Positions 5,402 through 32,395 of a DNA stretch of 64,000 nucleotides are shown one piece after another. The notes below the pieces were generated by a model that saw nothing but the letters and a program-made list of their open reading frames with translations, did not search any database and was not told where the DNA came from. The position numbers and the translations under genes are program-made. The DNA is from Candidatus Nanopelagicales bacterium (GTDB taxonomy: Bacteria; Actinomycetota; Actinomycetes; S36-B12), in assembly GCA_028825115.1 (NCBI GenBank), contig JAPKAV010000001.1, forward strand, positions 144,355-208,354, read 5' to 3'. Position 1 is the first letter of the stretch, and each line of letters opens with the position of its first letter.

Positions 5402-5517
5402 TCTCTCCCACTTTCTTAAAGATCAGGTGTAAAAAGATACCAGAGAAACCAGAGATACCTTGGGCGAGCTGAGTTTAACGTGCCACCAATTTCCGAGCGC
5501 ATCAACTTCCCTTTAAC

Positions 5518-6531
5518 TTAATTCAAGTTGGTTTCGTCGAGAGCTTGACCCTTAATAATGTCACGCGTTGCTCTTCGGCCGATCACTGAGTCTAAGTTTA
5601 TTGGTGGGATACCGGAGCCCGGCCTCATACACAGAAGGTCGTCTCGCTGGATCACGTGACCTTTGGTCATGTCAATTGCTGCACTAACTGAGCGGCGTAT
5701 GCTGATGCGGCTCTTAATCTCTGCGGGTGCCGGAATTTTTTCTCCGCTGCCCAGCAGTTCTACCACGTCATTCATCCGGTTTTTCAATTCCCGCAAATCC
5801 TGTGGATCCGCGGATAAGGCGTGATCTCGAAAGTTGGAATAATTCTTGTCCACCGTGAAGTGCTTCTCGATCATGACAGCTCCTGCGGCCACAGCAGTGA
5901 CAGCGACATCGATTCCGATTGTGTGATCGGAGAAACCAACGAACGCTCCGGGAAACCGCGACTTAAGGGTGTGCATGGCGCGCAGATTCACGGATGCAGG
6001 CTCGGTCGGATATGCCGAAACGCAATGTAATAGAGCCAAATCAGGCCGTAAATCGTGAGCACTCCACACGTCCAAGACGCGGCCTACTGCGGACTCGACT
6101 TCGGTCAGATACGAAGCACCCGTCGAGAGAATAGTGTCTTTGCCCAGTTTTGCCACGGAGTCAAGCAGCCCTGTAAAAGTTAGGTCACCCGAGCTGATCT
6201 TGAAGGTGCTTGCTACCTCGCCAAGTGACTCCGCACTCACGAGGTCCAAAGGTGTAGAGAATACGTGGATACCAGACGCCTCAGCCTCCTTGATCAACCG
6301 CTGAGTCTCGTCCAATGTAAGGGCAAAGCGCCGCATGCGCTCCAGGCGCTCGGGCTCCCCTTGTGAGATAAACAACTCTGGCACGAGCGTCTGCAACTTG
6401 ACTGCATCGGCACCAGCCTCATGAGCTAGCCCGATAAGTTCCTCCGCTAGGGCCACCGAGCCCTCATGGTTGTTCCCTATTTCGGCGATCAGCGCCACAC
6501 CTGTTGTGCAGTCGACGTTACCAATTCTCAA
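5518..6531 (-). CDS. N-acetylneuraminate/nonulosonate synthase family (NeuB/SpsE/PseI/LegI)
   Basis: 337 aa; AEIGNNHEGS, KLQT, FKISSGDLT, GFSDHTIG, EKHFTVDK, C-terminal SAF-like region. Confidence 0.92.
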   Translation of the reverse strand: MRIGNVDCTTGVALIAEIGNNHEGSVALAEELIGLAHEAGADAVKLQTLVPELFISQGEPERLERMRRFALTLDETQRLIKEAEASGIHVFSTPLDLVSAESLGEVASTFKISSGDLTFTGLLDSVAKLGKDTILSTGASYLTEVESAVGRVLDVWSAHDLRPDLALLHCVSAYPTEPASVNLRAMHTLKSRFPGAFVGFSDHTIGIDVAVTAVAAGAVMIEKHFTVDKNYSNFRDHALSADPQDLRELKNRMNDVVELLGSGEKIPAPAEIKSRISIRRSVSAAIDMTKGHVIQRDDLLCMRPGSGIPPINLDSVIGRRATRDIIKGQALDETNLN

Positions 6532-7307
6532 CCTGCCTGCTCCCTTTGATCGTGCGCATGGAGTACCTGCGTGGCTCCCGTGTAGCGAAATCCAAGCGTT
6601 TCGTACAAGCGCACCGAATGCACATTCGCCGCCTGGGTACCTACAGTGACCACACGTTCTACGCGAGCCGCATCGTTGAGAAGACGCCTGACCAACGATT
6701 TCCCCACACCGTTGCGATGCGCGTCAGGATCAACACCTACAAGATCGATAACAAAGGAACTTACACCGATGTCGCACTTTGAAAATCCCAGAAACCCCAC
6801 AACCTGCCCATTTCGGACGGCAACGAGGCACCCGTCACCTCTGGCGCGAAGTGCCAGATTACGCGCCCACTCTGTTTTAATACGACGGGCTTGCGCATTA
6901 GGGAAATCGGGATCAAGGTGAAACCTTGATACAACGAAAGCCCGCCCGGCCAAGATGGCAACTGCATTGCCATCTTCGGCTTCCACCTCTCGCACGTGAA
7001 AGGGATGCAATGACTGTTGAGGGCGCTCCACGCTAGAAGCGCCAACGATCCGGGCAGGATTCCACTCGAATGAGATTGCGGTATCCACGACTACGAAACC
7101 ACGACGGATGAGAGATGAAATACGCTCCACGTGGGCTACCGGCACTTTTGCAGTGACGAAGATTCTCCGTCCTGGCGCAGAGTTTAACTCTGAACTGTCA
7201 CTTGCAACCCCCTCCGTGGCGATCAAGGCTGTCATTCCCGTCAAATCGGAGATCCAGTCGTCATTTTTTAGGCTCAGACCTCTAAAATCAGTTCCCTTAC
7301 TACTCAT
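6528..7307 (-). CDS. GNAT N-acetyltransferase
   Basis: 259 aa; VAVRNGQVVGFLGF...VDLVGVDPDAHRNGVGKSLVRRLL acetyl-CoA motif; 4-nt overlap with neuB-like gene. Confidence 0.85.
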   Translation of the reverse strand: MSSKGTDFRGLSLKNDDWISDLTGMTALIATEGVASDSSELNSAPGRRIFVTAKVPVAHVERISSLIRRGFVVVDTAISFEWNPARIVGASSVERPQQSLHPFHVREVEAEDGNAVAILAGRAFVVSRFHLDPDFPNAQARRIKTEWARNLALRARGDGCLVAVRNGQVVGFLGFSKCDIGVSSFVIDLVGVDPDAHRNGVGKSLVRRLLNDAARVERVVTVGTQAANVHSVRLYETLGFRYTGATQVLHAHDQREQAG

Positions 7308-8376
7308 TCGACTGTGGCTCGATCCCTTTCAAGGCACTTGAATCAAATCTTTCGAAGAGTTGCCGATACCAAGAGATGTATTTCGGGAAACCCGCACTAA
7401 TGGGGAAACTCGGTTCATATCCCAACAAGGATTTCGCTTTCGAGACCTCCAAGGTCCCCCGCTCCGGGACCAGGGAGTTTCTCGGTTCATGCCGGACACT
7501 GATCTCGGGAAACTCAGACTGGACAATGTCAGCCACGGTCTGCAATGCCTCGCCCTGGCCGTACGTGATGTTGAAGATCTCTCCCTTTGATTTCTCCTCA
7601 CGAATTACGAGTGCAATACCCTCGACAAAGTCCTGGATGTAGGTGAAATCGATCTTCTCTAATCCGTCTCCCTGGATTACAAGATCTTTGCCACGGAGGG
7701 AATTTTCGATGAAGATCTGCCCAACCCTTCGGCTGATGCAGCGCTCACCGTAAAGCGCGGACGGACGCACAATTGTGTAGGGCAAGTCGAAAACTTGCCC
7801 ATAGGCAATAACAAGTTTTTCTCCACCTAGTTTAACTGCCCCATAGATACCGAGTGGATTACAAGGTGCGAGCTCGTCTACACTATCGGTCACAAAGTCG
7901 CCGTAGACCATGCTGGATGAAAGAAAGATGAAGTGCTCAACATTACCCCGCGCGTTGTCTAATGCATTCTCCAGCGAACGGAAACTATGGTCAAGTGTGC
8001 GCATCGGATCTTTGTTGGCCCGGCTTGCATGGGACACCGCCGCGAGCAGGACGACAGTATCCGGATCGAACATTGAGAAGTGTTTGGAAAGTCGGTGATA
8101 ATCTCGAGCGTCATCGACGAAGATGGGGATCCCAGCGGCCTTGAGTAGTGCGAGGCGTTCGTTGACCATGAGTGAATACAAGTCCCGCTCAGCAGGCGCT
8201 GATTCGTCATGTAGTGACAACAGGTTGTTGACGTGGAGGCTGTCAACTATGCCAACTTCGGCCCCACGGCCATGTAGCTCGAGAGCGAGGTTGTGACCGA
8301 TGAAACCTGCCCCACCAACTAGAAGTATCCGTTTGCCAACTAAATCCCGTGCCGAAGGGGGGGGCTGAGGTGTCAT
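7300..8376 (-). CDS. NAD(P)-dependent epimerase/dehydratase (extended SDR)
   Basis: 358 aa; ILLVGGAGFIGHNLA Rossmann motif, SSSMVYGD and YGAVKLGGEKL (YxxxK). Confidence 0.9.
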   Translation of the reverse strand: MTPQPPPSARDLVGKRILLVGGAGFIGHNLALELHGRGAEVGIVDSLHVNNLLSLHDESAPAERDLYSLMVNERLALLKAAGIPIFVDDARDYHRLSKHFSMFDPDTVVLLAAVSHASRANKDPMRTLDHSFRSLENALDNARGNVEHFIFLSSSMVYGDFVTDSVDELAPCNPLGIYGAVKLGGEKLVIAYGQVFDLPYTIVRPSALYGERCISRRVGQIFIENSLRGKDLVIQGDGLEKIDFTYIQDFVEGIALVIREEKSKGEIFNITYGQGEALQTVADIVQSEFPEISVRHEPRNSLVPERGTLEVSKAKSLLGYEPSFPISAGFPKYISWYRQLFERFDSSALKGIEPQSNE

Positions 8377-9542
8377 GTGACTTCCTTTACTGAGATCGAC
8401 AAGGACTCTACAACGATCAACATGTCTTCTCTCGAGAGGTGCGGGCCGATCGGGAGGGCAATTGATCCCTCACTAATGCGTTGAGCGTTCGAGAATGCAT
8501 CTGGATCGGGCGAATACCGGTCTTTATAATAGGCGGATAGTGGAAGGGGAATGGGGTAGTAAACGCTCGTTCCCACCCCCATTTCCTTCATCCGCAGGAC
8601 GATACTATTTCTATGCTGGACCAAGCCGGGATCAAGAACGGCGACCAGACAATAGTTAGCATGCTGACGACGAGCATCTCCATCGGGCAGAAGTCGAACT
8701 CCCTCGACACCCGCAAGGCCATCTCTGAGTGCCCGGGAATTAGCTTCTCGCTGCAGAGCGAACCCGTCGATCCGTCCCAATTGAACCACCCCAATTGCCG
8801 CAGCCATCTCACTCATCCGGTAGTTGATACCTAAACGGGCGATGTCATATATGCCCGGGATCGACCGAGCGGCAGCCGAACGGTCGTACCCGAAAGCTTT
8901 GAGGCTGGCAATTGACGCGATCTTGTCTGGATCCCGGCTGACAACCATGCCCCCCTCGCCGGTAGTCATGTGCTTTACCGGATAAAAGGAGAAGCTGCCG
9001 AGATCTCCGAGAAGTCCGCACGAAACATTGTCAAGACTGGCTCCAATAGCTAGAGCGCAATCCTCAACCACAGCCAAACCTTTGTGGCTTGCGATGGCTG
9101 ATACGACATCCATGACAACTGGCAAGCCCGGATAATGAACTACGCAAATCGCTTTGGTCCGATCGGTGACGTGGTCGGCGATTCGTGTTACGTCAATATT
9201 TCCGGACTCATCACAGTCAACGAACACCGGCCTTGCTCCAGTTACCTCCACCGCATGCGCAGTGGCGACGTGCGTCTGGGCGGGGACGATGACTTCGTCA
9301 CCCTGGCCAACTCCCAGGTGCAGGTAACTCAAATGCAAGCCAGCGGTGCAGGATGACACACTGGTCGCATAGGCGTCAGGTCCAAGCATGGCCGCGAATG
9401 CATTCTCGAATTCATGGATTCTTGGGCCATGTACTAGCTGAGGAGAGGACATGGCTTGCATAACGGCGTCTGTTTCAGCTTCACTGATCATCGGCCGACC
9501 GAAAGGGATCTCTTTAATGACACTCGATTCTGAGCCCATCAC
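8373..9542 (-). CDS. DegT/DnrJ/EryC1/StrS-family sugar aminotransferase
   Basis: 389 aa; GRPMISEAETDAV, SSCTAGLHLSYL, VVEDCALAIGA, SFYPVKHMTTGEGG (PLP lysine). Confidence 0.9.
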   Translation of the reverse strand: MMGSESSVIKEIPFGRPMISEAETDAVMQAMSSPQLVHGPRIHEFENAFAAMLGPDAYATSVSSCTAGLHLSYLHLGVGQGDEVIVPAQTHVATAHAVEVTGARPVFVDCDESGNIDVTRIADHVTDRTKAICVVHYPGLPVVMDVVSAIASHKGLAVVEDCALAIGASLDNVSCGLLGDLGSFSFYPVKHMTTGEGGMVVSRDPDKIASIASLKAFGYDRSAAARSIPGIYDIARLGINYRMSEMAAAIGVVQLGRIDGFALQREANSRALRDGLAGVEGVRLLPDGDARRQHANYCLVAVLDPGLVQHRNSIVLRMKEMGVGTSVYYPIPLPLSAYYKDRYSPDPDAFSNAQRISEGSIALPIGPHLSREDMLIVVESLSISVKEVT

Positions 9543-9570
9543 TCAAGCCTCCTCGCATGTATTGGTTGGC

Positions 9571-10656
9571 CTACCGCTGTAACATTTGACGATATTCTAT
9601 GTCCCTTGGTTCGGCGCTTTTTACCGAAGCGTCGATTGCGAGGCACACAGCCAAAACGTCCATCGCATCCTGTTCGCTAATCTCTAACTTTGCGGTCCCG
9701 GACAGTACCTCATTAAAGTTGGCAATCAAGGTACCCTTGGGCGTCGCCGGGTACGCTAAGTTTATAGCAGTGGGTGGCTCCGTTGCCTCGCGACTATGGA
9801 ATACGAAGGCAGACGACCATTCTCCTTCCAGTGACTCGTTGTTGGCAATCGCCGAACTGACCGGAACGTGGATGTAAGTTCCCAGACTTCCAAAAACGTC
9901 GATTCGGTGGAAGTGTGGTAGGACGCAGGCATAATTGGCGGAAACCTTGGCGGTCATTCCCGATGGGAACTCAAGTAGGGCAATCCTAAAGTCATCACCG
10001 TTGAAAGAAGAATCCGCTGAGTAGGTGCTATCACGCAGACCCTTGCCACTACCTAAGGCGTGCACCCGGTGGGGCCGCTCTCCGGTGAGCCAAATGAGTA
10101 AATCCACTACATGCACTGCACCACCAAGTGTCACAGAGTAGGTGGGATCTTCTCCACGCCACCCGGTCGACAACTTCTCAAGCCGGCCATACAAGTAGTC
10201 CCCCTCCAGGTGGAAGATGCTACCCAATTCGCCGGCCGCTATCATCTGTTTGAGCGCTAAAAATCGGGGTGACCGGCGCAGCAGGGTGTTACTCGTTAAA
10301 CGGACGCGTGGATTCCGCTCCAAAGCGTTCGCGGTGGCAATGTACTGTCCAGATGTGGTCGCTAGGGGCTTTTCGGCGAAAACGTTGATCCCTTGATTGA
10401 GAGCCCGCTCAATCGTTGGACCATGCTCTGAGTCATAAGACGCGACAACAAGAGCGTCTAACTGCACTTCTTCGAACATGCCCCCCTCATCGGGGAAAGC
10501 TGGCACGAATGGAAATTCTAAGAGCCACTTTTCACGCTGTTCTGACTGTCGATCGCACACCGCCACGAGTTGCGCATTTTCGGCCTCCATGATCGCGAGG
10601 GCATGCTGGTACCCAATGCCCAGCCCGATCACCCCCCAACGAATTGGTCTACTCAT
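9571..10656 (-). CDS. Gfo/Idh/MocA-family oxidoreductase
   Basis: Start set to MSRPIRWGVIGLGIG (ATG at 10656) rather than the longer ORF; ATGA overlap with the upstream cytidylyltransferase stop; FAEKPLATT motif. Confidence 0.88.
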   Translation of the reverse strand: MSRPIRWGVIGLGIGYQHALAIMEAENAQLVAVCDRQSEQREKWLLEFPFVPAFPDEGGMFEEVQLDALVVASYDSEHGPTIERALNQGINVFAEKPLATTSGQYIATANALERNPRVRLTSNTLLRRSPRFLALKQMIAAGELGSIFHLEGDYLYGRLEKLSTGWRGEDPTYSVTLGGAVHVVDLLIWLTGERPHRVHALGSGKGLRDSTYSADSSFNGDDFRIALLEFPSGMTAKVSANYACVLPHFHRIDVFGSLGTYIHVPVSSAIANNESLEGEWSSAFVFHSREATEPPTAINLAYPATPKGTLIANFNEVLSGTAKLEISEQDAMDVLAVCLAIDASVKSAEPRDIEYRQMLQR

Positions 10657-11384
10657 GACAGGCCCTTCATTTCCATCGCAATCTGACAACACGCCAGCCA
10701 TCCGGCATCCCAAGGGCGAATCGGTCCTAATGCTCGAATGACGTACTCGCACCGAGCGAGGTCGATCGGAGCGTCTACGGCAAGATGAACCCTTTCGACA
10801 CCCCACGGCATATTGTTCAATCCCACGAGTTCCGCAACTTCGAAGTTGCGGATATCAAAGCGCTCCGGATATTGGTAGAAAACCTGGGTCACGTGCTCCT
10901 CCTCGAAGGCAGTGAGGCCACCAGAGTAGGCCGCGGCCAGAGATGCAGTGCGGACCACTTCCACGGACTGACCAGCGGGAAACGTCCGCGGGAAGACATT
11001 AGTGACCACGTCGTAATCGTGGGCCCGAAAAACTTCAACCGCGTAATCGATCAATCGAGGATCAATCAAGGGACTGTCCCCACTAACGCGAACGAAAGCG
11101 CGCGCCGTGTACTCCTGCGCGGATTCAAGAACCCGCTCAGCAACATTCTCCAGCGACCCCCTCGTTACGGCCAACCCTCGAAAGCGGCACCAATCCACAA
11201 TCTTGTTGTCGCTACGATCGGTTGAAGTTACCACGACGATCTTGGAAATATTGGCACACTGCTTAATGGCATTAGTTACGTGCCCGAGTAAGACATCGTC
11301 GCCGAGTGGGGTAAGTGACTTTGCTGGAAGACGAGCGGAAGACATGCGAGCGACTACCAAAGCGATGGGAGCTCCTGAGTCCAT
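10653..11384 (-). CDS. SpsF-like cytidylyltransferase
   Basis: 243 aa; ALVVARMSSARLPAKSLTPLG, VRVSGDSPLIDPRLID. Confidence 0.85.
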   Translation of the reverse strand: MDSGAPIALVVARMSSARLPAKSLTPLGDDVLLGHVTNAIKQCANISKIVVVTSTDRSDNKIVDWCRFRGLAVTRGSLENVAERVLESAQEYTARAFVRVSGDSPLIDPRLIDYAVEVFRAHDYDVVTNVFPRTFPAGQSVEVVRTASLAAAYSGGLTAFEEEHVTQVFYQYPERFDIRNFEVAELVGLNNMPWGVERVHLAVDAPIDLARCEYVIRALGPIRPWDAGWLACCQIAMEMKGLS

Positions 11385-11385
11385 C

Positions 11386-12687
11386 TCAGAGTCTGTTCAC
11401 GGATGGCCCAGACAGGACCCCGCGGGTGTCGAGAACGAGAGATTCTGAGGATGACAGCAAGGCAAGGTCGTAGGAACGGTGGGCTTGAAGAAGAACCGTG
11501 ATGTCAGCAGAGTGCAACGCGCCCTCAACGTCACCATGTCTGGAGACCAGCGAGCCACCGATGCTCCAGTTACTCACGAAAGGATCTTGGTAACTCACTA
11601 AGGCGCCAAGGTTCATCAATGCCTCAGCAACCTGCACCGCAGGGGACTCTCTCTGGTCTGAGATGTCCGGCTTATACGTCACGCCGAGTAGTGCAACCTT
11701 GGAACCTTTGACGGGCTTCCCAATTCCATTTAGTAGATCTTGGATTCGACGAACAACGTATAAAGGCATTCCCGCATTAATTTCCTGCGCAAGTTCAACG
11801 AATCGGAAGGGTTGCCCCAAATGTGTTTTTACACGATGGGACAAGTAGTTGGGGTCAATTGGAATGCAATGACCGCCAACCCCTGGGCCTGGTAAAAATG
11901 CCTGGAAACCAAAGGGCTTAGTACTAGCGCATCTGATTGAATCCCAAAGATCAATGTTGAGTTCGTGACAGAACTGCGCCATTTCATTTACCAGCGCAAT
12001 ATTCACGTGCCGGTATGTGTTCTCCAGTAACTTTGTCATTTCAGCCTCGCGCACTCCCTTTGCTACGACCACGTCTTCTACAAAGTGCGCGTAAAACTCA
12101 CTAACACGCTGGCTGCACTCTGGCGTCAGTCCCCCAACCACTTTCGGGGTATTACGCACACCGAACTGTTCGTTGCCCGGATCGATGCGTTCGGGGCTGA
12201 AAGCAACATTAAAGTCACGTCCTGCAGTCAAACCTGACGTCTCAAGAATCGGTACTAAAACCTCCTCCGTCGTGCCCGGGTAGGTCGTAGATTCCAACAC
12301 CACGAGTTGGCCAGAAACGAGATGCTCAGCTATTACGCGCGCTGCCGCTCTAACAGCTGACAGATCAGGTCCTCCCTCAGTGGAAAGCGGTGTAGGAACA
12401 CAGATCGCAATGACGTCCCCACGAGACAGAACCGCTGAGTCGGTGGTGGCGCGAAATCCAGCATCCAGCATCCTCTGCACGGCTGTGTCAGCCACATCAT
12501 CCACATGCGAATGCCCAGAATTGATTTGATCCGTGACATCCGGTGAATTATCGAAACCAACGCATTCCAGACCCGCGAAGACCGCCTCGAACGCCAAAGG
12601 AAGCCCCACATAGCCCAAGCCGATGACAACGACTTTCGGTGCAGCATGCGCCATTATGTGTCCTTCCTCACCTGCACCTTGATCCAT
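11386..12687 (-). CDS. Nucleotide-sugar dehydrogenase (UDP-HexNAc/UDP-glucose dehydrogenase family, TviB/WbpA-like)
   Basis: 433 aa; VVVIGLGYVGLPLA, STTYPGTTEEV, GPGVGGHCIPIDP (catalytic Cys), LGVTYKPDISDQRESPA. Confidence 0.92.
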   Translation of the reverse strand: MDQGAGEEGHIMAHAAPKVVVIGLGYVGLPLAFEAVFAGLECVGFDNSPDVTDQINSGHSHVDDVADTAVQRMLDAGFRATTDSAVLSRGDVIAICVPTPLSTEGGPDLSAVRAAARVIAEHLVSGQLVVLESTTYPGTTEEVLVPILETSGLTAGRDFNVAFSPERIDPGNEQFGVRNTPKVVGGLTPECSQRVSEFYAHFVEDVVVAKGVREAEMTKLLENTYRHVNIALVNEMAQFCHELNIDLWDSIRCASTKPFGFQAFLPGPGVGGHCIPIDPNYLSHRVKTHLGQPFRFVELAQEINAGMPLYVVRRIQDLLNGIGKPVKGSKVALLGVTYKPDISDQRESPAVQVAEALMNLGALVSYQDPFVSNWSIGGSLVSRHGDVEGALHSADITVLLQAHRSYDLALLSSSESLVLDTRGVLSGPSVNRL

Positions 12688-15823: not shown

Positions 15824-16990
15824 ATGGATACACCGCCGCTTTACCGCAAGGGAGAAAGCCTTCAGTCTTTAGTTGGACGGTCCCCGAATCGCCTTCGCGA
15901 GCTGGGTGGTGCGCGAAGCAGGCTTGACGCGCTAGAAGTCAAAATCGCAAGTCTGGGCCTGCCCTCAACGATGCTCGGTGTACTCAATCGTGCGCTGAGT
16001 GATCTTAAAGTGTCTCAGGGGGAGCGTAGCCCCAGCACTTTTTTTTTGCGTCCCCATGTTTTTGAAGAGATCGAGCGGCTAGACGACAAAGATCTGCCCC
16101 GTTACCTTTACCACAGGTATCGCTACGACGTATTCCCCACAACGAAAGAACTGGATGGCTATCCCCCATGCGTACAGATTGAGCCGACATCCATTTGTAA
16201 CTTTCGATGTGTGTTCTGTTTTCAGACGGATCCACTTCTGACGCTTCGCAAGCACGGGCACGCGGGTCAGATGTCACTTGAATTGTTTAAGGCGATCGTG
16301 GACCAGATCGAAGGCCACGTCGAGTTCGTCACAATGGCTTCCAGAGGTGAACCATTGTTAACCAAAAACATTGAGCAAATGCTGGCCTACGCGTCTGGAA
16401 AGTTTTTAGGATTAAAGATGAACACGAACGCAACCTTTCTTGATGAAAAGAAGGCGCACGCAATCCTGCAAGCTGAGCTCAACACACTTGTATTCTCGGC
16501 TGACGCAGCGGATGCTGAAACGTACGCCCAATTGCGTATTAACGGTGACTTCGACAAAGTCATGGCTAACATTAAGCGTTTCAAACAGATAAAGGAGCGC
16601 GACTACCCAAATTCACGGTTGATCACGCGGGTTTCAGGTGTCGCTTTCGATCGCGAGCGGCAAGATCACCAGGCGATCGAGGCATTCTGGGGGGAGTATG
16701 TCGATCAAGTTGCATTCGTCGACTACAACCCGTGGGAAAACGCGTATAGCAATACCCCAAATGGTATTGATGAAGCGTGTTCGGATTTGTGGCGTCGTTG
16801 CTTTGTCTGGTGGGATGGGAAGATGAATCCATGCGACGTTGACTATCGTTCGTTTCTTTGCCCAGGGAATGTTGAGGATGAGCCACTAAGTGAGATTTGG
16901 ACAGGAAAAGGTTATGCGACCTTGCGTAAAAACCACCTTGAGGTCCAACGACAGTCCTTAACACCCTGCCAAGGATGCGTTTCAGTGTGA
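15824..16990 (+). CDS. Radical SAM protein with SPASM-like C-terminus
   Basis: 388 aa; EPTSICNFRCVFCFQ (CxxxCxxC), C-terminal CFVWWDGKMNPCDVDY...GNVEDEPLSEIWTG...CQGC. Confidence 0.9.
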   Translation: MDTPPLYRKGESLQSLVGRSPNRLRELGGARSRLDALEVKIASLGLPSTMLGVLNRALSDLKVSQGERSPSTFFLRPHVFEEIERLDDKDLPRYLYHRYRYDVFPTTKELDGYPPCVQIEPTSICNFRCVFCFQTDPLLTLRKHGHAGQMSLELFKAIVDQIEGHVEFVTMASRGEPLLTKNIEQMLAYASGKFLGLKMNTNATFLDEKKAHAILQAELNTLVFSADAADAETYAQLRINGDFDKVMANIKRFKQIKERDYPNSRLITRVSGVAFDRERQDHQAIEAFWGEYVDQVAFVDYNPWENAYSNTPNGIDEACSDLWRRCFVWWDGKMNPCDVDYRSFLCPGNVEDEPLSEIWTGKGYATLRKNHLEVQRQSLTPCQGCVSV

Positions 16991-17889
16991 AGAGTCAGAC
17001 GAAACCCGAGAGGATTCTTGTAACGGGGGGTAGTGGCTTCCTTGGAAGCCACGTTGCCGACGAGCTCGTAAAGCAAGGCCAAGAAGTTGTAGTGCTCGAT
17101 CTGGAACCTCCAGCGTCAGGGGATCGCCGATTTATCCTCGCGGATATCCGTGACGCCCAAGCTGTAAACGAAGCCATGATGGGATGCCACGCAGTATTTC
17201 ATTGTGCGGCAATTGCCGATCTAGACAAAGCGCGAGAGTTTCCACGGTTGGCTCTGGAGGTCAACGTTCTAGGAACCCTCACAGCGTTGGAAGCTGCGGG
17301 AGCTGCCGGAGTTCAACGTTTTATGTTTGCGAGTAGCGTCTACGTATTTTCGAAGGGCGGATCCGTGTATCGGACGACAAAGCAGACAGCGGAGAGACTC
17401 GTGGAGGACCTTTCCCCGCAGTTAGGTCTGAGATCCACGATCCTTCGCTTTGGTTCTCTATATGGCCCTAGGGCTGACCCGCAGAATGCAATACTTCGGC
17501 TGGTTACGCAGGCGGTAAATGAGCGTAAAATTGACTTCTGGGGTGACGGAACGGAGATCCGGGAGTATGTGCACATCACTGATGCCGCATCGTTGGCAGT
17601 TACTGCCTTGGATCCGAAGTATGCAGAGAAGTCCTTACATATTACCGGTCGTGAACGAATTTCTACGCTTGAATTGTTACAGATGATTGACGAGATCCTC
17701 GGAGGAGATATCGAGATTAAGTTGTGCAATGAGCCATTCGAGGGGCGATACAGACTCACTCCGTATTCCTTCACCTCCAACCATGGACGCCGTCTTGTTG
17801 GCGACACTTATGTCGATCTGGGACTTGGGCTTGTAGAAGCGATCAAGGCAAGCAGCGACCATAACCCGATTGAGAACTTTTCGTCATGA
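16975..17889 (+). CDS. NAD-dependent epimerase/dehydratase (extended SDR)
   Basis: 304 aa; ILVTGGSGFLGSHVADEL; 16-nt overlap with radical SAM gene. Confidence 0.88.
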   Translation: MRFSVKSQTKPERILVTGGSGFLGSHVADELVKQGQEVVVLDLEPPASGDRRFILADIRDAQAVNEAMMGCHAVFHCAAIADLDKAREFPRLALEVNVLGTLTALEAAGAAGVQRFMFASSVYVFSKGGSVYRTTKQTAERLVEDLSPQLGLRSTILRFGSLYGPRADPQNAILRLVTQAVNERKIDFWGDGTEIREYVHITDAASLAVTALDPKYAEKSLHITGRERISTLELLQMIDEILGGDIEIKLCNEPFEGRYRLTPYSFTSNHGRRLVGDTYVDLGLGLVEAIKASSDHNPIENFSS

Positions 17890-18614
17890 TCGTAGCAATT
17901 CTTATTGGCCGTAAAGGGTCCACGGGATTTCCCGGCAAGAACACAACCGAAATCGCTGGGCACCCCATGGCTTGGTGGCCCCTTGAGGCGGCCAGGCAAA
18001 CTCTCGAAATAGATATTACCTACGTGTCCACAGATGATCCCGCCTTGGCTGAAATCGGCATTGAGCTGGGGGCACATCTAATTGAACGTCCACCTTACCT
18101 AGCCAGCAACATGGCATTGGGCGAAGACGCTTTTGTCCACGCACACCAAGTAATCAATCAGGAGCTGAAGGCTGCGGGAACCCCACCTGAACTTTATGTG
18201 CTGCTCATGGCCAACGCTGTCACGATCTCGCCTGCGCAAATAAGGGAAGGAATCTCCCAGATGCGGAGCAGATCAGATCTTGATTCGGCAGTCACGGTCT
18301 CCTGTTACAACATGTGGAGTCCGCTGCGTGCCCGTAAAATCAGCGATGACGGACTTCTTCAACCATTTGTCCCCTTCGATGTTTTCGGTGACCCTGCCAC
18401 ATTGAACTGCGATCGGGACTCCCAGGGAGATGTTTGGTTTGCAGACATGGGTGTCTCGATTGTGCGACCACGAAACCTCGATGCTCTTGGCTCGGGTCTC
18501 TTGCCGCAAAAATGGATGGGTCAACGCATATACCCCATCAAGAATGTGGCTGGGCTTGACGTTGACTATCGATTCCAAATGCCACAGGCCCAGTGGTGGT
18601 TAGAGAACTCTTAG
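17886..18614 (+). CDS. CMP-sugar cytidylyltransferase (NeuA/PseF/LegF-like)
   Basis: 242 aa; MIVAILIGRKGSTGFPGKNTTEIAGHPM; 4-nt overlap with epimerase. Confidence 0.85.
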   Translation: MIVAILIGRKGSTGFPGKNTTEIAGHPMAWWPLEAARQTLEIDITYVSTDDPALAEIGIELGAHLIERPPYLASNMALGEDAFVHAHQVINQELKAAGTPPELYVLLMANAVTISPAQIREGISQMRSRSDLDSAVTVSCYNMWSPLRARKISDDGLLQPFVPFDVFGDPATLNCDRDSQGDVWFADMGVSIVRPRNLDALGSGLLPQKWMGQRIYPIKNVAGLDVDYRFQMPQAQWWLENS

Positions 18615-18616
18615 GA

Positions 18617-19609
18617 TTAGCCTCGAAACAGTTGTTGGGATAGGTACTCATCTTCAGGAACGAGGTTTTGTAGGTCAAGCCCTCGCAGAAATCGCACGAC
18701 CTCCTCAGTGGCTTCTATCTCCATTCGAGAGCGGCAGTCAATTGACATGGACCCCATGTGACAAGTGAGCAGGCACCTGTCTATCTCACCTAAAGGTCCC
18801 ACATAAGGCTCATCTTGGAATACGTCGATCGCCGCACCCCCAAGATGCCCTTCACTCAATACCTGATAGAGGTCGGACTCGTTAATGATTCCTCCGCGGG
18901 AGGTATTGATGATGAGCGCATCTGGCTTCATCTGGCGCAATTGTTGTAGCCCTATCATGTTACGTGTCTGCTTTGTAAATGGCACGTGGACGCTAATTAC
19001 GTCCGCCTCTCGATAAATCGTATCCTTGCTGACCCACTCTAATTTCGACTCGGGGACCAATTTATGTTCTGGATTCAAATCATTAACGAGGGTTCGAGGG
19101 GTGCCAAAAACTGGGATTCGCCGAAGCACCCGACTGCCGATACGGCCGGTTCCGATGATCCCGATCGTGACTTCCGATATCCGCCGACCCATGTGGCGAT
19201 CCCACTCGCCCCGATGCATCTTTAGATTAGCAAGGTGTGTGTGGCGCAAGAGCGACAATATCAACCCGATGGTCAATTCAGCCACCGCCGGAGCGGGTGC
19301 TTCGGGGGTATAGGAGACGGCTATCCCGCGCTCACGAGCCGCATGCAAGTCCACGTTGTCCAGACCAATGCCTACTCGAGAAATAAGCTTAAGATTAGTA
19401 GCAGCATCCATTACCGTCGCAGTGATTGGTTCTGTTCCGGCGATAATAATTTCAGTATCGACAGCCATCTGCGCCAACTCTGCTTCCTTGAGTCGGCGGC
19501 CAAGAGGATTGACTGAGTACCCGGCATCTGTTGAGGCCAACAACTCAAGCGGGAGATTGTTGTGCGCGCCGAACGGAACCGTCGTTATAAGAACACGTGC
19601 CACGGACAC
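18617..19609 (-). CDS. D-isomer-specific 2-hydroxyacid dehydrogenase (SerA-like)
   Basis: 330 aa; IGIIGTGRIGSRVLRR, INTSRGGIINESDLYQ, AAIDVFQDEPY. Confidence 0.9.
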   Translation of the reverse strand: MSVARVLITTVPFGAHNNLPLELLASTDAGYSVNPLGRRLKEAELAQMAVDTEIIIAGTEPITATVMDAATNLKLISRVGIGLDNVDLHAARERGIAVSYTPEAPAPAVAELTIGLILSLLRHTHLANLKMHRGEWDRHMGRRISEVTIGIIGTGRIGSRVLRRIPVFGTPRTLVNDLNPEHKLVPESKLEWVSKDTIYREADVISVHVPFTKQTRNMIGLQQLRQMKPDALIINTSRGGIINESDLYQVLSEGHLGGAAIDVFQDEPYVGPLGEIDRCLLTCHMGSMSIDCRSRMEIEATEEVVRFLRGLDLQNLVPEDEYLSQQLFRG

Positions 19610-19657: not shown

Positions 19658-20314
19658 CTATTGCGGAGGGTTCGTCATTACTAGGCGGTTCGCATTGGAC
19701 AGATCATGCAAATTATCGATCACGGCACTAGATTCAATAAATTTCGATGCGCTGCACGAACATACCTGGATGAATTGCACACCAGTGATGGTGGCCGCCT
19801 GCAGGTCCTCAAAACTATCCCTGACAAGGATGCATGATGTGGGGATACGGCCTTGAGCCGTAATTACTTCTTGAATTGATAACCCCTTATCTGGAGGCCT
19901 TCCTAAAATACATCTGCAGTACTGAGTGAGGTCCCGCTTGTCAAAAATACTTCGTAACTCATCGGTCGGTGTTGCTGAGACGGCGTACAAAGTTGACTCC
20001 TCGAACCACTCAGCGACGGCAGCGCCCGCTCCAGGAATTTCCGGAGCCTCCATCACTCCTTGAACTACGGCTACGGAAAAGCACGTGATGCGATCTGCAA
20101 GCTCCCGTTCCGTGGGTGCCCGGCCAACAATCATGAGATGGAGCGCTGCGATTTTTTCATTCCTATTTACTCCACCATGCGCACGGTGAAAGGAAACTAC
20201 TTCGTCATGGGCATCAGGATAATCGCTGAAGGCATCTCCCTTTATTGTCAGCGAGTCAATGAGAACAACATCTACGTCGGGAAAAACAGCTTCTGGATAA
20301 CTGAGTTTGGACAT
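19658..20314 (-). CDS. HAD-superfamily hydrolase, degenerate paralogue (copy A)
   Basis: 218 aa; alignable end-to-end with 27524-28189; motif I PDVDVVLIDS (Gly to Val) and motif IV VRDSFED (Gly to Arg); 4-residue deletion relative to copy B. Confidence 0.8.
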   Translation of the reverse strand: MSKLSYPEAVFPDVDVVLIDSLTIKGDAFSDYPDAHDEVVSFHRAHGGVNRNEKIAALHLMIVGRAPTERELADRITCFSVAVVQGVMEAPEIPGAGAAVAEWFEESTLYAVSATPTDELRSIFDKRDLTQYCRCILGRPPDKGLSIQEVITAQGRIPTSCILVRDSFEDLQAATITGVQFIQVCSCSASKFIESSAVIDNLHDLSNANRLVMTNPPQ

Positions 20315-20316
20315 AA

Positions 20317-21042
20317 CTATTCACCACCTGAGATGGCGTTCACCTGACCTGTTACATAGGTATTTTGCTCCGACCCAAGCCAAAACAGATAGTCGACTAT
20401 TTCGGAGACGTCAGCTGCCCTATTGATTGGGATGAGAGACTTCCGCTCCTGAAGATTCCGACTCGAGAACGCGGAGTGCATCTTGGTGTCTGTTACGCCG
20501 ATGCGAACAACGTTGGAAAGAACGTTGTTCGCAGCCCAGTCGCGGGCAAGTCGTGGGATGAACTCGCACGCGTGGTTGGCTAAGGCATAGGCGAAGGAAT
20601 CCACTCCTCCCCCAAATTTCACACCGATGCTCGAACCGATGACAATCCGTCCCCAGCCTCGTTTGGCCATCTTGGGCCCAAGAGCGCTCAGCAAAACATA
20701 GTTTGCCAAGGCACCAACGTTCATTGTTTGATGAAGAAGATCAATATCTATTGACTCGAGACTCATTGGCGCAGCGAAGGCTGCCAAGCACACGAGGGCA
20801 TCGCAGTTGGTAATAGCGGGGTCTTGAGCCGCCGACTGTACACTGTTGAGATCACTGAGATCAAGTTCTATGAGATCCAAGCCGGGGTGTGAGAGTGAAA
20901 GGGATCGAAGGGCTTCTGGATTACGGTGAAAGTGTCCCGTTACGCGGAATCCGGCGTCAAGGTACTTCCGAGTCATAGCCAGTCCGATGTCCGAACTTGC
21001 GCCTAATATTAGCGCCTTGCGTTCTCCGTGGCTCTCACTCAT
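20317..21042 (-). CDS. Short-chain dehydrogenase/reductase (copy A, full length, YxxxN instead of YxxxK)
   Basis: 241 aa; ALILGASSDIGLAMTRKYL; active-site region SSIGVKFGGGVDSFAYALANHACEF. Confidence 0.85.
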   Translation of the reverse strand: MSESHGERKALILGASSDIGLAMTRKYLDAGFRVTGHFHRNPEALRSLSLSHPGLDLIELDLSDLNSVQSAAQDPAITNCDALVCLAAFAAPMSLESIDIDLLHQTMNVGALANYVLLSALGPKMAKRGWGRIVIGSSIGVKFGGGVDSFAYALANHACEFIPRLARDWAANNVLSNVVRIGVTDTKMHSAFSSRNLQERKSLIPINRAADVSEIVDYLFWLGSEQNTYVTGQVNAISGGE

Positions 21043-22725: not shown

Positions 22726-23391
22726 TTAATCCTTCACTTCACGAAGCAACTCGTCGATAACTTCCTTAATCCCCATGAGGTTTGTCACGGTACGAGATGC
22801 CCCGGCAAGAGCAAGGGCGGGAGTTTCCCCGACTTGGACGAAAAGAATGCGATTCTCCATCGCTGCAACAGCATCATGTTCGCTGTCTCCAATAAAGAGG
22901 CATTGCGTGGCGCTGTACCCGTGCTTGTGAATCAGAGTGCGAACGGCAGTGGCCTTCGATTGCGGCACTCCATTAACCAACCGGAAGTAGTCGATCATCA
23001 CCACGGTGACGCAAGATTTGTTTGAGTCCAAGATCAGGTGTGGCCGAGACATTGTGCATAAGGAACCTTGCGTGCGTGGATGCGAGAGCAACGGATGCCC
23101 CTAGAATTTCTGGCTCTCCCATCACTTTTTGCAGAAAAAAGCACAGAAAACGCATCAGTCAGTTCCAAGGCTCACTGCTCGCTCAAAATGACACCAAATA
23201 ACTGCTCGTAGATCATTTCAAATTTACGCAACCGATTTACCCCGCCATTTGCACGGTGCAGTTCGAGGATCGCCTCACTGTGTTTGGGAGATCCGAACAA
23301 AGGGTCAACGAACGTCTGTCCTTTTGCGGCGATAGAGTCAAGGAGCACCCCGTCGACATCAAGAAATACAACGTCTTTTCATCACACAAGA
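22726..23391 (-). pseudogene. HAD-superfamily hydrolase pseudogene (third copy)
   Basis: Pieces in different frames: VVFLDVDGVLLDSIAAKGQTFV...ELHRANGGVNRLRKF...(stop); EILGASVAL...MHNVSATPDLGLKQILRHRGD; LVNGVPQSKATAVRTLIHKHGYSATQCLFIGDSEHDAVAAMEN. Confidence 0.8.
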
Positions 23392-23406
23392 ATAAAGCTT
23401 CCACGG

Positions 23407-24363
23407 CTATCTGTGCTTCGCATACTCTAATATTTCAGAACTGCACTGAGACCAGAACTGCCTCATGAGATTAGAAGGACCTGCAGTTATGCGTACAAAG
23501 TTTTCTAAAGGATAATCTGAAAGTGGTCCACGAATGGCGTAACCGGACGCTCGAGCGGAGGCCACCAATTGCACCGCTGATTTGCGTGACGCGCGCTCAA
23601 GTAATACGAAGTTGGCGTGGGAGGTAGATGTGATCAGACCAGATTCGAAAAACTTATTCATGAGATATTCTCTTCCAGCAACGACATCAGAAACACGGGC
23701 CAAAGCCCAGTCGAGATGATCAAGAATATAGTGTCCGGCTAAAAGGGCAATGGAATTAGACTTTGTCACGCCGCGGAACTTTTCTACCTCAGATATTCGC
23801 TCTGCTGGTCCAACGCAAAAACCCAGTCTGAGCCCCGCGAGCCCGCGGGCCTTCGAGAACGTTTGAGCGACAATGACATTCGGATAATCCGTGATCAAAT
23901 TCAGTGCTGACTCTGGCGTAAACAACCAGTATGCCTCGTCAACAAGCAAAATGGCGCCAGCATCGAGTGCAGCATTCGCGATTATACCAAGTTCCGCCGA
24001 GCGCATCAAGGTACCTGTGGGTTGGTTTGGATTTGCAAGCACTATCAAACGTGGTTGCTCTTTGACAATGACGTTAATCAAACTTTCCAGGTCCACGTTC
24101 AAATTAGAGTCGAATGGGAACCCAATAAGCCTCGCTCCGCACTTCGCGGCAAATACCTCGTAAAGGGAATAAGAAGGGCTCAATACAAGAACATCGGTCC
24201 CCTCGTCCACGTACGCTTCGAATACCATCCCCAAGGCCTCGGAGGACCCAGCCGTGACGGTCAGGTTTGTTGGGAGCAAACCAAGCCAATCAGCAATGCG
24301 TCTTTCAAGGCGCTCTGAGTCGTGGTAGGCCGCCAGATCATTAGATCTTATTCGCCCCAACAT
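23407..24363 (-). CDS. PLP-dependent aminotransferase class I/II (HisC-like), probably 5'-truncated by an amber codon
   Basis: 318 aa; LANPNQPTGTLM, LLVDEAYW, VAQTFSKARGLAGLRLG; upstream in-frame MDRNEDVIG-TAG-DEEILAAM. Confidence 0.8.
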   Translation of the reverse strand: MLGRIRSNDLAAYHDSERLERRIADWLGLLPTNLTVTAGSSEALGMVFEAYVDEGTDVLVLSPSYSLYEVFAAKCGARLIGFPFDSNLNVDLESLINVIVKEQPRLIVLANPNQPTGTLMRSAELGIIANAALDAGAILLVDEAYWLFTPESALNLITDYPNVIVAQTFSKARGLAGLRLGFCVGPAERISEVEKFRGVTKSNSIALLAGHYILDHLDWALARVSDVVAGREYLMNKFFESGLITSTSHANFVLLERASRKSAVQLVASARASGYAIRGPLSDYPLENFVRITAGPSNLMRQFWSQCSSEILEYAKHR

Positions 24364-25147
24364 TGCAGCTAAAATTTCCTCATCCTAGCCGATGACATCC
24401 TCATTTCGATCCATCCGGACCAGTTCAGAGCGATCTTCGAAAGGTATTGTCACGCGATTTATCCGCGCACTGCGTTCGCTGATCGGAGGGGTGAATTTCG
24501 GTTGCATCAGGAAGTCACATACCCAACTGGGAAGCCGAGTTCCACTTTTGGAGTTCGGAATAGGAGTCAAGCGGCGTAGAATTACGGTGGGTAGTCTCCA
24601 TAGGAAGTTGACCCACATAGGCCTCAAAAATTGGGTTGGTGTTGTCGGGGATGGCAAATTGCACATGGTAGAAGTCAAGGAAAGCAACCGTCTGAGCGCG
24701 GTCATCATAGCCTGCTTGTGTTGATTCAGACTGCGTGATTGAGTGACTCATTTCCTCTGTTTCCTTTAATGTGTGCGCAGCCTAAGCTACTTTTTCACAA
24801 TTCTGATTAAAGCAGAGCTAGGTATTTTTACCAGCAGTAGTACCGTGGAGGGAAAAAATGGTTTGTGATTTTGCACTCCAAGATTCATTGCAATCGAAGT
24901 AGGGCGAGAAGAACTTACCTGGTCTTCATTATAACGAAGCTAGGGTTACCAGATGCAATAGTAAAAAATTGACATCTGGCCTAGTTAATGGCCTGACCAT
25001 TGCCCGACTTAATGATTGAATCTACATGACTGAGCGTTTTATGAACCGCAACGACTCGGTCTTTTGGGTTTGCCGATTTTGTTATTCATTTCCTGGAGCG
25101 GCACCCGGAAGTGAATCAACCCGTTAACGGTTTGATTCATTGTTCTA

Positions 25148-26247: not shown

Positions 26248-27087
26248 TTAAGGCTGAGGGACATTGGTCCTAGATGAGCGCGCTTCCTCTTTTTTAGTTT
26301 GGATGCTTCTCACCTGCTCGACAAGTGATGGCGGCGAATGCACTAAGAACTTCGTGTGCTGGTTTCCGCCTAACCCTTTTCGCAAAACTGCCGCCGCAAA
26401 TATACATTCTTTAACCGAGGTTTGTGCAGTTTCTGAAGGGCTGCCCCAGTAACCAAAAACATCGACCTGAGTAGCACCCAAAGACTTGGCAAATTGAACT
26501 GCTTTGGGAACCGATACAATTATAGAAGGTGCGATCTCACTTCCCCCTCCTGAGATCGGAGTCGTGGATTGAAATGAATCGCTAATATTTTCTAGTCAAA
26601 TGCGCGGATGAAGCCGCATGATCATGAGTAGTACACCGCCGTCTGCAACAAAATTCCATGCGGCCCGGATATTTTCGCGAATCTACTCGTTCCAATCCAC
26701 AGCACTCAGGGACACGACAAGGTTGAATGTTTGAGCCGGCTCCAGCAGCGCCACGCCTTCCAATCCATCACCGGCGATGACACGCCCACCGAAACCTTCA
26801 ACTAGACGACCACCAAGTTCAGCCGCGTGGGCATGGATCTCAAGACCAGTGTATTGCCAACAACCAAACTGTTCATTGAGCGCGAGACCAAGTCCACCAC
26901 AAGCGCACCCAATGTCGAGGATCGTCGTCGTGGGTCCAGGGGCTACTAAATCCAGCGCAAGCCGTTCGGATGGATAAAAGTGGCTATATTTGAACCGATT
27001 ATGCGAGTAGTAATCCGAGAGCCCCGGACTGTTGTAACTAATGTTCATGTACTTTCCAGCCTCGCCAAGAATAAAGCCATGAAGCAC
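26248..27087 (-). pseudogene. SAM-dependent methyltransferase with two in-frame stop codons
   Basis: One continuous frame: ILDIGCACGGLGLAL ... SAVDWNE-TAG(26683-26685)-IRENIRAAWNFVADGGVLLMIMRLHPRI-TGA(26596-26598)-LENISDSFQSTTPISGGG...VDVFGYWGSPSETAQTSVKE. Confidence 0.8.
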
Positions 27088-28671: not shown

Positions 28672-30615
28672 TCACAGTGAAGCGAGCAACGCATACCACT
28701 TAGTTAAGCCACCATCCAGGTACATTGCGTAGGGCTGTTCCGTGGATCTTGCCCCCGCGCCAAACTCAATTTTTCCAAGAGCAGCAGCCACTTCGGCCGC
28801 GTCATTCACGTACATGACAGTTGGCCCAGCCCTCAATGGAGACCCATTGAGCACACGGCCGTCCCTAAGCATTAGAGTCGGAATTCCCTCAAAAATTGCA
28901 TCTAGCGATGCAGAACTTACGTTGCTGCAGAGCGTCACGTCGCATTCGGCTAGGGCTTCTCTGGTTGTCTGTACTTCCGAAAGTGATACCCCGCTTGGAA
29001 GGCTTTCCTTCAAAAATGGCTTTGCAGGGTGTGGTCGAAACGTAAAGGTCCACTTATCACCAGCGAAAGGAACCAGTTCTTCAAGGATCTGGAGTTGTTT
29101 TGCACACATCGAAACGTCATATTCACCGAAAACAAGAAGCGTTCGGCTATTGAATGCACGGGTTCGATTTTTTGACGAGTCTGCATTAGTTGAATGGCGG
29201 GACCAGAATCGTAATGCCTCAACTTTGCGGATCTTCGAGGGTTCCCGTCCGTTGGCAATCATGATGGCTTCACTTTTTGGATCGATAACGGCAACATCGG
29301 AGGGAGCGGGCAGTGTTCGACTGTTCTCAGCACTAGACCCGGAAAATCCAATCGCATATCGAAGATCCCAAGTGCGTACAGGCACATGCGCCACTCCAAT
29401 GTTTGGGCCTGCATCTCGAGCCATCCGTGCCCAAAGGAGCGCCATTTCCCAAGGCTGGTTCTCCATTAAGTAGATACATGAACCCTGGCCTTGCTGAAAG
29501 GGGAGCGCCTCACCAAAAAGTGAAAGCCACAGTGCGTTCCTGGCCGCTCCTAAGCCCTGAAAATCTGAATTCAAGCGAGAACGGACTAGTGGCGAAACGT
29601 CTAACCCACTCACGGAATCTGCCCAAGGAATTCGAGTTGCGAGCTGTTTTGTGATTTTGCGTATCCGTAAATATTGCACAACGGATTTAAATGCAACTGG
29701 CAGAGTCAAGTAGTCATGAAGAAGGAAGTGGCGCGAAGAAGCGTGGTGTCGATTCAGACCCCGGAGTGCGGCTCGCGCTGAGCGTACATTGGGGAGCGCT
29801 GCACTTCTTACGTCGATGTGGATCCAGTTAACCGTTGTCCGCAGTCGGGGAAGGATCTGGGTAAGTGGGCCCCAGTAGTTGGATGTGAAAGTACCGTCCC
29901 GCGCGGCTGTCGAATCAATATTGGTGAAGTAGTCAACGACGGTGAGTGCAGGATCCTCAGCGGTATCAGGAGAGAGTTTATGGCGATGCCAAGTGAAGTA
30001 GCGGAGATACTGCAGGGCTAGGTAACCAATCCCATTAATAAGATGAGGAATTTTTCTTTCAAGGAGTGAGCAAGTGGTGTGGACGTGCGATTCATCGATA
30101 TCCATCCTGTGTCCGTGAACGAATGTGATTTTACGTTCAGTTTCGATGCACCATAGTGTGAGAATCTTCTCGAACTCCGCGTCAGCGTCGTGCACTTGCA
30201 GTTCTCCCACATGGTTGGCATCTGAGATCTGGACCAGGGCCCAGAGGCGCAGAGTTGCATAGGCGATGGATGTTGGGTTGAACGAATAATCCGAAGGAAT
30301 TGTCATCCACCAGTAACTAAGCCCAGGCCGCACGAGGAGAGCATCAACGACTGTCGTTGCGCCGAAGGAATTTTTCCCGACGGTTTCGAGCCACGACAAG
30401 TATCTGAGCTTCCAGTAGCTTGCGTTCTCGTTGAGCAGCTCCGGAAGCGAAATATTGCCTGCCTTGCTCTTTTGCTCAGAAATGTATTGCGCCCAATAGA
30501 CCGAGAAGTGTCCGGGCGGTGGTGTGCCCTCCGGAGAGCACCACAACAGTAACTTCTTCATCGCCTCCTTATGATACTTGAATAAAGGGAGATAAGAACC
30601 GCAGCGACATGACAC
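28672..30615 (-). CDS. Surface-carbohydrate biosynthesis protein, large GT-like (resembles LIC13510/LIC12162-type families)
   Basis: 647 aa; YWWMTIPSDYSFNPTSIAYATLRLWAL in the N-half, CDVTLCSNVSSASLDAIFEGIPTLML in the C-half; family assignment from memory only. Confidence 0.6.
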   Translation of the reverse strand: MSCRCGSYLPLFKYHKEAMKKLLLWCSPEGTPPPGHFSVYWAQYISEQKSKAGNISLPELLNENASYWKLRYLSWLETVGKNSFGATTVVDALLVRPGLSYWWMTIPSDYSFNPTSIAYATLRLWALVQISDANHVGELQVHDADAEFEKILTLWCIETERKITFVHGHRMDIDESHVHTTCSLLERKIPHLINGIGYLALQYLRYFTWHRHKLSPDTAEDPALTVVDYFTNIDSTAARDGTFTSNYWGPLTQILPRLRTTVNWIHIDVRSAALPNVRSARAALRGLNRHHASSRHFLLHDYLTLPVAFKSVVQYLRIRKITKQLATRIPWADSVSGLDVSPLVRSRLNSDFQGLGAARNALWLSLFGEALPFQQGQGSCIYLMENQPWEMALLWARMARDAGPNIGVAHVPVRTWDLRYAIGFSGSSAENSRTLPAPSDVAVIDPKSEAIMIANGREPSKIRKVEALRFWSRHSTNADSSKNRTRAFNSRTLLVFGEYDVSMCAKQLQILEELVPFAGDKWTFTFRPHPAKPFLKESLPSGVSLSEVQTTREALAECDVTLCSNVSSASLDAIFEGIPTLMLRDGRVLNGSPLRAGPTVMYVNDAAEVAAALGKIEFGAGARSTEQPYAMYLDGGLTKWYALLASL

Positions 30616-31542: not shown

Positions 31543-32395
31543 AACAATGGAATCAGTTTCTCGCCCCCTAGTTTCTGTGATAATTCCCACTTACAATATG
31601 GAGCAGCACATCGCGGAAACACTGAATTCCGTTCAGAGCCAAACCCTTGAATCGTGGGAAGCGATCGTGGTTGATGATTGTTCGACGGATTTAACAGCCC
31701 AAATCGTGAATAACTTTGTGGAGCAAGACCCACGGATACGATATTGTCGTCTGCCGAAGAACAGCAACTTGCCTGCAGTACCCAGAAATTATGGAATCCA
31801 ACAGGCTCATGGAAAATATGTCGCTCTACTAGATCACGATGATGCATGGAACCCACAAAAGCTACAGCGACAAGTCCAAGTCCTCGAGGAAGATGAGGAC
31901 CTAGCAATGGTCCACTCTCAGCTGTGGGTTGTCAGAGATGGGCGGAGATTTTGGGGAATTTTCTATCTGCGATCACCACGGCAGTGCATTGCTGTTGAAT
32001 CAAGTTTGAAATGGCGTAATGTAATTCAGTGTTCTGCTGTCATGGTCCGAAAGGTTGTCATCCAAGACTTGGGTGGTTTTGATGAATCACTCGAATTAAG
32101 AGCGGTCGAGGACTATCATCTTTGGTACCGTATAAGTCAGCAGCACAGAATTGCATTCATAAGTGAAATTCACGGGGTGTACCGCCACGATAAATCGAGC
32201 ACCTCGTCCATCGAAAACATGGTACACCGGCTGCAGAAAGTGGATCAGGCCCTCGGAACGCTAACCTCGGCGACCAAACAAAATTTTTTGCGAAAAATTA
32301 TGGCGAAAGCACTGAACTTCCCCAGTGTGCTCTATTTTCTCATCCTCGAAGGTCGTTACCGACAGTATGTTGGTTCTTCACCAAGATGTTGGTAA
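31517..32395 (+). CDS. Glycosyltransferase family 2
   Basis: PLVSVIIPTYNMEQHIAETLNSV, VVDDCSTDLTAQIV, ALLDHDDAWNPQKL; real start may be 31547. Confidence 0.9.
   Translation: MTSLRWGAKTMESVSRPLVSVIIPTYNMEQHIAETLNSVQSQTLESWEAIVVDDCSTDLTAQIVNNFVEQDPRIRYCRLPKNSNLPAVPRNYGIQQAHGKYVALLDHDDAWNPQKLQRQVQVLEEDEDLAMVHSQLWVVRDGRRFWGIFYLRSPRQCIAVESSLKWRNVIQCSAVMVRKVVIQDLGGFDESLELRAVEDYHLWYRISQQHRIAFISEIHGVYRHDKSSTSSIENMVHRLQKVDQALGTLTSATKQNFLRKIMAKALNFPSVLYFLILEGRYRQYVGSSPRCW

Follow-up and report, generated by a model that had tools for sequence, protein, structure and literature searches.

The window, the whole stretch of 64,000 nucleotides analysed here, comes from a Candidatus Nanopelagicales bacterium and carries three overlapping genes on its plus strand:

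15824 to 16990, plus strand: radical SAM protein of predicted Twitch type, 388 aa, from the cytidylyltransferase-linked clade, with C125xxxC129xxC132 and C319, C337, C382 and C385 (Pfam; 77-row alignment; BtrN best by profile and by fold)
16975 to 17889, plus strand: extended SDR of the NAD-dependent epimerase/dehydratase type, 304 aa, with the YxxxK motif kept (GTG at 16987 as a possible alternative start)
17886 to 18614, plus strand: putative CMP-ulosonate-synthetase-like cytidylyltransferase of a discrete subfamily, 242 aa (Pfam; fold search; bit-score gap to the paralogue)

The open reading frames and Pfam assignments bear out the trio described in an earlier sequence-only reading, together with its overlaps of 16 and 4 nt. 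The SDR and cytidylyltransferase genes share 4 nt at an ATGA junction, and the 16 nt shared by the radical SAM and SDR genes hinge on the ATG start at 16975, the overlap being 4 nt (GTGA) with the alternative GTG start. Scores above the curated Pfam cut-offs were obtained for Radical_SAM (62.5 bits) and SPASM (42.2 bits) in the first protein, Epimerase (152 bits) in the second and CTP_transf_3 (41.2 bits) in the third, and none of the three reached an NCBIfam equivalog cut-off. The SDR is generic, its profile lying far nearer to NDP-sugar epimerases than to sugar-phosphate dehydrogenases; its catalytic residues Y132 and K136 are invariant in the family alignment.

The following genes lie downstream of the trio:

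18617 to 19609, minus strand: D-2-hydroxyacid dehydrogenase, convergent with the trio across a 2-nt gap; R238, E267 and H284 intact
19658 to 20314, minus strand: HAD-like protein, probably decaying, without Pfam match; V16 and R165 replace near-invariant glycines (compared with 23 family HADs)
20317 to 21042, minus strand: FabG-like SDR2, full-length; Asn156 replaces the YxxxK lysine (Lys in 22 of 22 relatives)
22732 to 23402, minus strand: HAD remnant paired with AT1, frameshifted over three frames (detected by tblastn, the intact copy of contig C140 serving as query)
23407 to 24618, minus strand: HisC-like aminotransferase (AT1) with an in-frame stop; intact on C140
25148 to 26056, plus strand: FkbM-family methyltransferase
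26284 to 27087, minus strand: class I methyltransferase of the MT39 type, tied to AT1 loci, with two in-frame stops; intact on C140
27524 to 28189, minus strand: HAD phosphatase-like protein, intact, with the DVDGV motif
28672 to 30615, minus strand: TIGR04326 surface-carbohydrate biosynthesis protein, candidate glycosyltransferase (291.2 bits against a cut-off of 250)

The family-invariant catalytic residues are kept in the trio and the hydroxyacid dehydrogenase, and both alternative downstream modules, AT1 and SDR2, look damaged in this genome as judged from their sequences. Contig C140 of the same assembly (completeness 77.5%, contamination 3.36%) carries a syntenic, 82–85% identical version of most of the region between 17.0 and 38.7 kb (17007–38701; L061/L065), in which the decay is reciprocal: AT1, MT39 and HAD are intact, SDR2 is broken and only an 80-residue fragment of the radical SAM gene survives. 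C140 may belong to a related strain or represent a second locus in the same cell, and the cassette may be decaying or rearranging in this genome, though the family is conserved elsewhere. Three further proteins of the window may be noted. A 608-aa protein at 13242–15068 matches neither Pfam nor NCBIfam, and a short stretch at its C-terminal end matches another protein of the same genome (L063); a glycosyltransferase-like protein at 32356–33525 contains an Asn-Asp repeat (NDNDNDNDND) missing in the C140 counterpart; and a secreted-looking protein at 56606–57874 contains a Tyr-Thr simple repeat (TYTYTYTYT).

The radical SAM protein was previously read as SPASM-type, of which the radical SAM assignment stands and the SPASM assignment gives way to Twitch. 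The complete SPASM motif, CX9-15GX4C-gap-CX2CX5CX3C-gap-C, contains seven cysteines (PMC6231123) and corresponds to two auxiliary clusters. Only its first part fits the window protein, in which the auxiliary region consists of C319-X12-G-X4-C337 and C382-X2-C385 alone. C125, C129, C132 and these four auxiliary cysteines are invariant in 77 of 77 alignment rows, the chain ends 2–5 residues past the last auxiliary cysteine, and a further cysteine after C385 is absent in 75 of the 77 rows. At the sequence level, the protein thus has the BtrN-type arrangement of CX3CX2C plus a four-cysteine auxiliary cluster, and is of the Twitch type with one predicted auxiliary cluster.

BtrN is also the best profile match (E = 2e-18), with the spacing of its C187, C232 and C235 equal to that of C337, C382 and C385 in the profile alignment; C319 presumably corresponds to BtrN C169. 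An AlphaFold2 model (mean pLDDT 94.5) gave as its top fold match BtrN with AdoMet and 2-DOIA (PDB 4m7t, E = 3e-12), DesII and BlsE being also among the matches. BtrN catalyses the two-electron oxidation of 2-deoxy-scyllo-inosamine, a cyclitol alcohol, to a ketone, its auxiliary cluster being the likely electron acceptor (PMC9012708). By analogy, we infer that the window enzyme would oxidise a hydroxyl to a ketone in a BtrN-like two-electron reaction. The assignment is provisional because sequence networks in this radical SAM subfamily are poor at predicting function (PMC6231123). Epimerisation, dehydration or a C-C bond change had been proposed in the sequence-only reading; the closest model is instead dehydrogenation.

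The model of the cytidylyltransferase (pLDDT 88.8, residues 176–180 forming a loop of low confidence) gave CMP-sialate, Pse, Kdn and Kdo synthetases as all of its first 46 fold matches. With this fold go the nucleotide-binding and metal residues of CMP-ulosonate synthetases, R9, S12, K18, N19, D225 and D227 being kept in 53–54 of 54 rows, and the modelled protein is a putative CMP-ulosonate-synthetase-like enzyme that would transfer CMP to an ulosonic acid. The sugar-binding half carries invariant motifs of its own, SxYNMWSPxRAR, CDRDSxG and LPQxWMG. Family members score 390–449 bits against 150 for the paralogue in the same genome set, and the window protein is not assigned to PseF (TIGR03584), with 55.7 bits against an equivalog cut-off of 205.7. 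Across the 2.18 Mb assembly, 77.5% complete, nine CTP_transf_3 genes score over the cut-off (C4, C71, C92, C140). A row of genes for a DegT-type aminotransferase, an iron-type alcohol dehydrogenase and a cytidylyltransferase (L062:6095-9146) recalls by eye the 8-amino-Kdo (KdnA/KdnB) set.

Relatives of the radical SAM protein were collected with a probe alignment of the window protein and five scrambled copies keeping only the motifs expected to be conserved, a search device and not data. The search of the genome collection returned 124 stretches. Confirmation left 113, and the best 80 of these, with 36–57% identity, form the set used here, which is biased to proteins with LWRx[CM][FY]VW[WF] or NPCDxDY[RK]S. 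An orthologous cytidylyltransferase was present in 54 of these 80 loci (the best 80 of 113), hereafter CMP+ loci, in every case on the strand of the radical SAM gene and mostly adjacent to it (median gap 150 bp). This association is far beyond chance and extends over at least eight phyla, SAR11, Nitrospinota, Omnitrophota and Cyanobacteriota being among the groups represented. A reverse search with the cytidylyltransferase alignment identified full-family matches in 15 genomes of three genome groups; a radical SAM gene was nearby in 14 of the 15, though 11 had already been found via that gene and so are not independent. In the four new genomes, a radical SAM gene lay within 6 kb in three and none was detected within about 7 kb in one. 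The finding named beforehand as evidence against a sugar role, radical SAM homologues accompanying peptides and lacking cytidylyltransferases, is the opposite of this pattern, and the gene context supports the proposal that radical chemistry on an acidic sugar, itself putative, would be coupled to CMP activation.

A peptide (RiPP) substrate was rejected on context, no equivalog cut-off being reached and the neighbours being glycan genes. More broadly, the radical SAM gene might be an unrelated passenger of a glycan island, as a peptide maturase or otherwise, in keeping with weak matches to some NCBIfam peptide-maturase models and with the poor predictive value of similarity in this subfamily (PMC6231123). 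Such a passenger would hardly be linked so strictly, and on the same strand, to a single cytidylyltransferase subfamily in that many phyla, and we regard this explanation as very improbable.

In samples of the host order and phylum, only distant SPASM/Twitch proteins were found (about 25–39% identity over partial alignments). The cassette was likely acquired laterally by the host, because its own genome is the only one in the phylum sample with the cytidylyltransferase family. No viral relatives were detected, either in a scan of viral sequences with the single protein or in a motif search of viral contigs.

The cytidylyltransferase is absent from 26 of the 80 loci, and in 21 loci, most of which belong to a separate clade, a Gfo/Idh/MocA gene stands beside the radical SAM gene. 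In this sister clade (L211, L213, L215–L219, L223–L226, L228–L237), which includes thaumarchaea (Nitrosopumilus, Nitrosopelagicus), the Gfo/Idh/MocA oxidoreductase adjoins, often in NeuB-containing loci, and may form with the radical SAM enzyme another oxidise-then-reduce pair. In Azospirillum thermophilum (L067), a cytidylyltransferase gene adjoins a radical SAM gene, a likeness set aside because the 496-aa radical SAM protein appears by eye to be of another type. A Brachyspira hyodysenteriae plasmid (L071) carries several radical SAM/SPASM genes, distant relatives only, in a block with a glucose-1-phosphate cytidylyltransferase.

The companions in the 54 CMP+ loci include SDR (45), HAD (24), D-2-hydroxyacid dehydrogenase (21), FabG-like SDR2 (23), HisC-like AT1 (17), FkbM methyltransferase (19), 6-phosphogluconolactonase (9) and TIM-barrel isomerase (9), where the hydroxyacid dehydrogenase, HAD and lactonase each occur in less than half of the loci and many contigs are short. 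In three loci (L169, L174 and L177), the genes follow on one strand in the order lactonase, hydroxyacid dehydrogenase, SDR, HAD, cytidylyltransferase, radical SAM and AT1. Planktothricoides sp. SR001 (L160) also has a complete cassette. The earlier suggestion that the neighbouring 2-hydroxyacid dehydrogenase, HAD and SDR could extend the system is supported for the family (21, 24 and 23 of 54 loci, respectively), with the reservation that the HAD and SDR copies in the window look damaged.

AT1 and SDR2 are never found together (0 of 54 CMP+ loci; Fisher p = 1e-5), and their states switch at least 10 times on the radical SAM tree; a stricter independent-pairs test of the exclusion leaned in the same direction, with no concordant pair, and was not significant (median p 0.25), the pairs being too few. 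The MT39 methyltransferase is present in 5 of 17 AT1 loci and in 0 of 23 SDR2 loci (p = 0.009). Usually AT1 or SDR2 is the very next gene after the radical SAM gene, with median gaps of 37 and 18 bp, respectively. This arrangement bears on the view that the radical SAM enzyme epimerises or dehydrates a CMP-sugar, with AT1 and SDR2 acting on another carbon or on an earlier intermediate. DesII and BlsE, which have nucleotide-linked sugar substrates, are among the fold matches in agreement with that view, but two mutually replacing enzymes that both use a carbonyl and directly follow the radical SAM gene argue against it, leaving it unlikely in our judgement. For the ketone-forming reaction preferred here, the swap of AT1 for SDR2 suggests a simple one-gene way to alter glycan chemistry.

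As to the source of the acidic sugar, a probable separate nonulosonic acid block lies upstream of the trio:

2457 to 12687: WbuX amidotransferase (318.8 bits, over its cut-off), AsnB-like protein, NeuB, GNAT, LegB-like SDR, LegC/PseC-like aminotransferase, MocA, second cytidylyltransferase and NDP-sugar dehydrogenase

Its NeuB-type synthase (5518–6531) is 10 kb from the trio. The trio could belong to a classical nonulosonic pathway, in which the ulosonate made by this synthase is activated with CMP and tailored by the radical SAM enzyme in a late step. The NeuB, amidotransferase, LegC-like aminotransferase and GNAT genes at 2–12 kb of the window and the NeuB gene in 7 of the 54 CMP+ loci are in line with such a pathway. 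Against it, NeuB occurs less often in CMP+ loci than in those without the cytidylyltransferase (7/54 vs 15/26, p = 8.5e-5), and the upstream block has its own cytidylyltransferase (10653–11384, Pfam), so that we consider this pathway rather improbable. A phosphonate route, suggested by SAR11 and by the combination of cytidylyltransferase and dehydrogenase, was rejected: the neighbourhoods contain no PEP mutase cluster, and the single PEP mutase match of the host genome is on another contig.

The lactonase of the cassette loci scores 154.6 bits against the 6-phosphogluconolactonase equivalog cut-off of 124.45, and their TIM barrel is nearest to 5-keto-L-gluconate epimerase, below the cut-off. 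For the hydroxyacid dehydrogenase, the closest profiles are those of phosphoglycerate dehydrogenase and glyoxylate reductase, with a 2-ketogluconate reductase also among the matches. Taken together, these matches suggest keto-aldonate chemistry. The lactonase is absent from the locus in the window, one PF01182 gene being present on another contig of the same genome. The 2-keto acid would arise, we infer, from oxidation rather than from a NeuB-type condensation with PEP.

We propose, at about even chances, that the trio forms the centre of a cassette spread by horizontal transfer, which supplies a surface glycan with a CMP-activated ulosonic acid, with the 2-keto acid formed by oxidation and a ketone formed by radical chemistry. 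An aldose phosphate would be oxidised first, perhaps by the SDR, a role that is only a guess, NDP-sugar epimerases being nearer to this generic SDR. The lactone would be opened by the 6-phosphogluconolactonase, the D-2-hydroxyacid dehydrogenase would produce the 2-keto acid from an aldonate phosphate, the phosphate would be removed by the HAD and the cytidylyltransferase would couple the 2-keto acid to CMP. Before or after this coupling, the radical SAM enzyme would abstract hydrogen from a carbon bearing a hydroxyl group, with the second electron passing to its auxiliary 4Fe-4S cluster, as in BtrN, giving a ketone. This ketone may then be aminated by AT1, with the MT39 methyltransferase acting next in some cases, or alternatively be reduced by SDR2 with possible inversion.

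A wider proposal, which we advance tentatively and hold to be somewhat more doubtful than the cassette itself, is that these genes define a new route to CMP-ulosonic acids free of PEP condensation, in which an aldose phosphate would undergo oxidation at C1 and C2, lose its phosphate and be joined to CMP, and in which the ketone formed by the Twitch dehydrogenase is passed to interchangeable aminotransferase and reductase modules that diversify the glycans of SAR11, Nitrospinota, Omnitrophota and others. In abundant ocean bacteria, O-chain clusters are diverse within populations (PMC11898729). A literature search for the combination of radical SAM enzyme and cytidylyltransferase, in which subscription journals were thinly covered, returned no matching description; the cassette is apparently undescribed, its component kinds of protein being already known. 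If the proposal is true, surface-glycan biosynthesis, abundant ocean bacteria included, would gain an acidic nucleotide sugar and a step of radical dehydrogenation, and one radical SAM family and one cytidylyltransferase family, both as yet unassigned, would each receive a testable function.

Among known systems, BtrN shares with the window enzyme the Twitch domain, the C-x44-C-x2-C auxiliary spacing and the best profile and fold match, and in both settings an aminotransferase can come after the oxidation. The two proteins differ in that identity is about 17% over the fold alignment and the 388-aa window protein has an N-terminal extension of about 110 aa; BtrN belongs to an antibiotic (butirosin) cluster, whereas the window enzyme belongs to surface-glycan loci with a cytidylyltransferase. 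NeuA, PseF and KdsB share with the cytidylyltransferase the fold, the nucleotide-binding stretch of R9, K18 and N19 and the DxD metal-type motif of D225 and D227, but identity is about 20%, the sugar-binding half differs and all NCBIfam equivalog cut-offs are missed. The neu, pse and leg clusters resemble the cassette in their surface-glycan setting and, as gene content suggests, in the CMP activation of an acidic sugar. In contrast to these clusters, the cassette is mostly without NeuB and contains instead the D-2-hydroxyacid dehydrogenase, lactonase, HAD and radical SAM genes.
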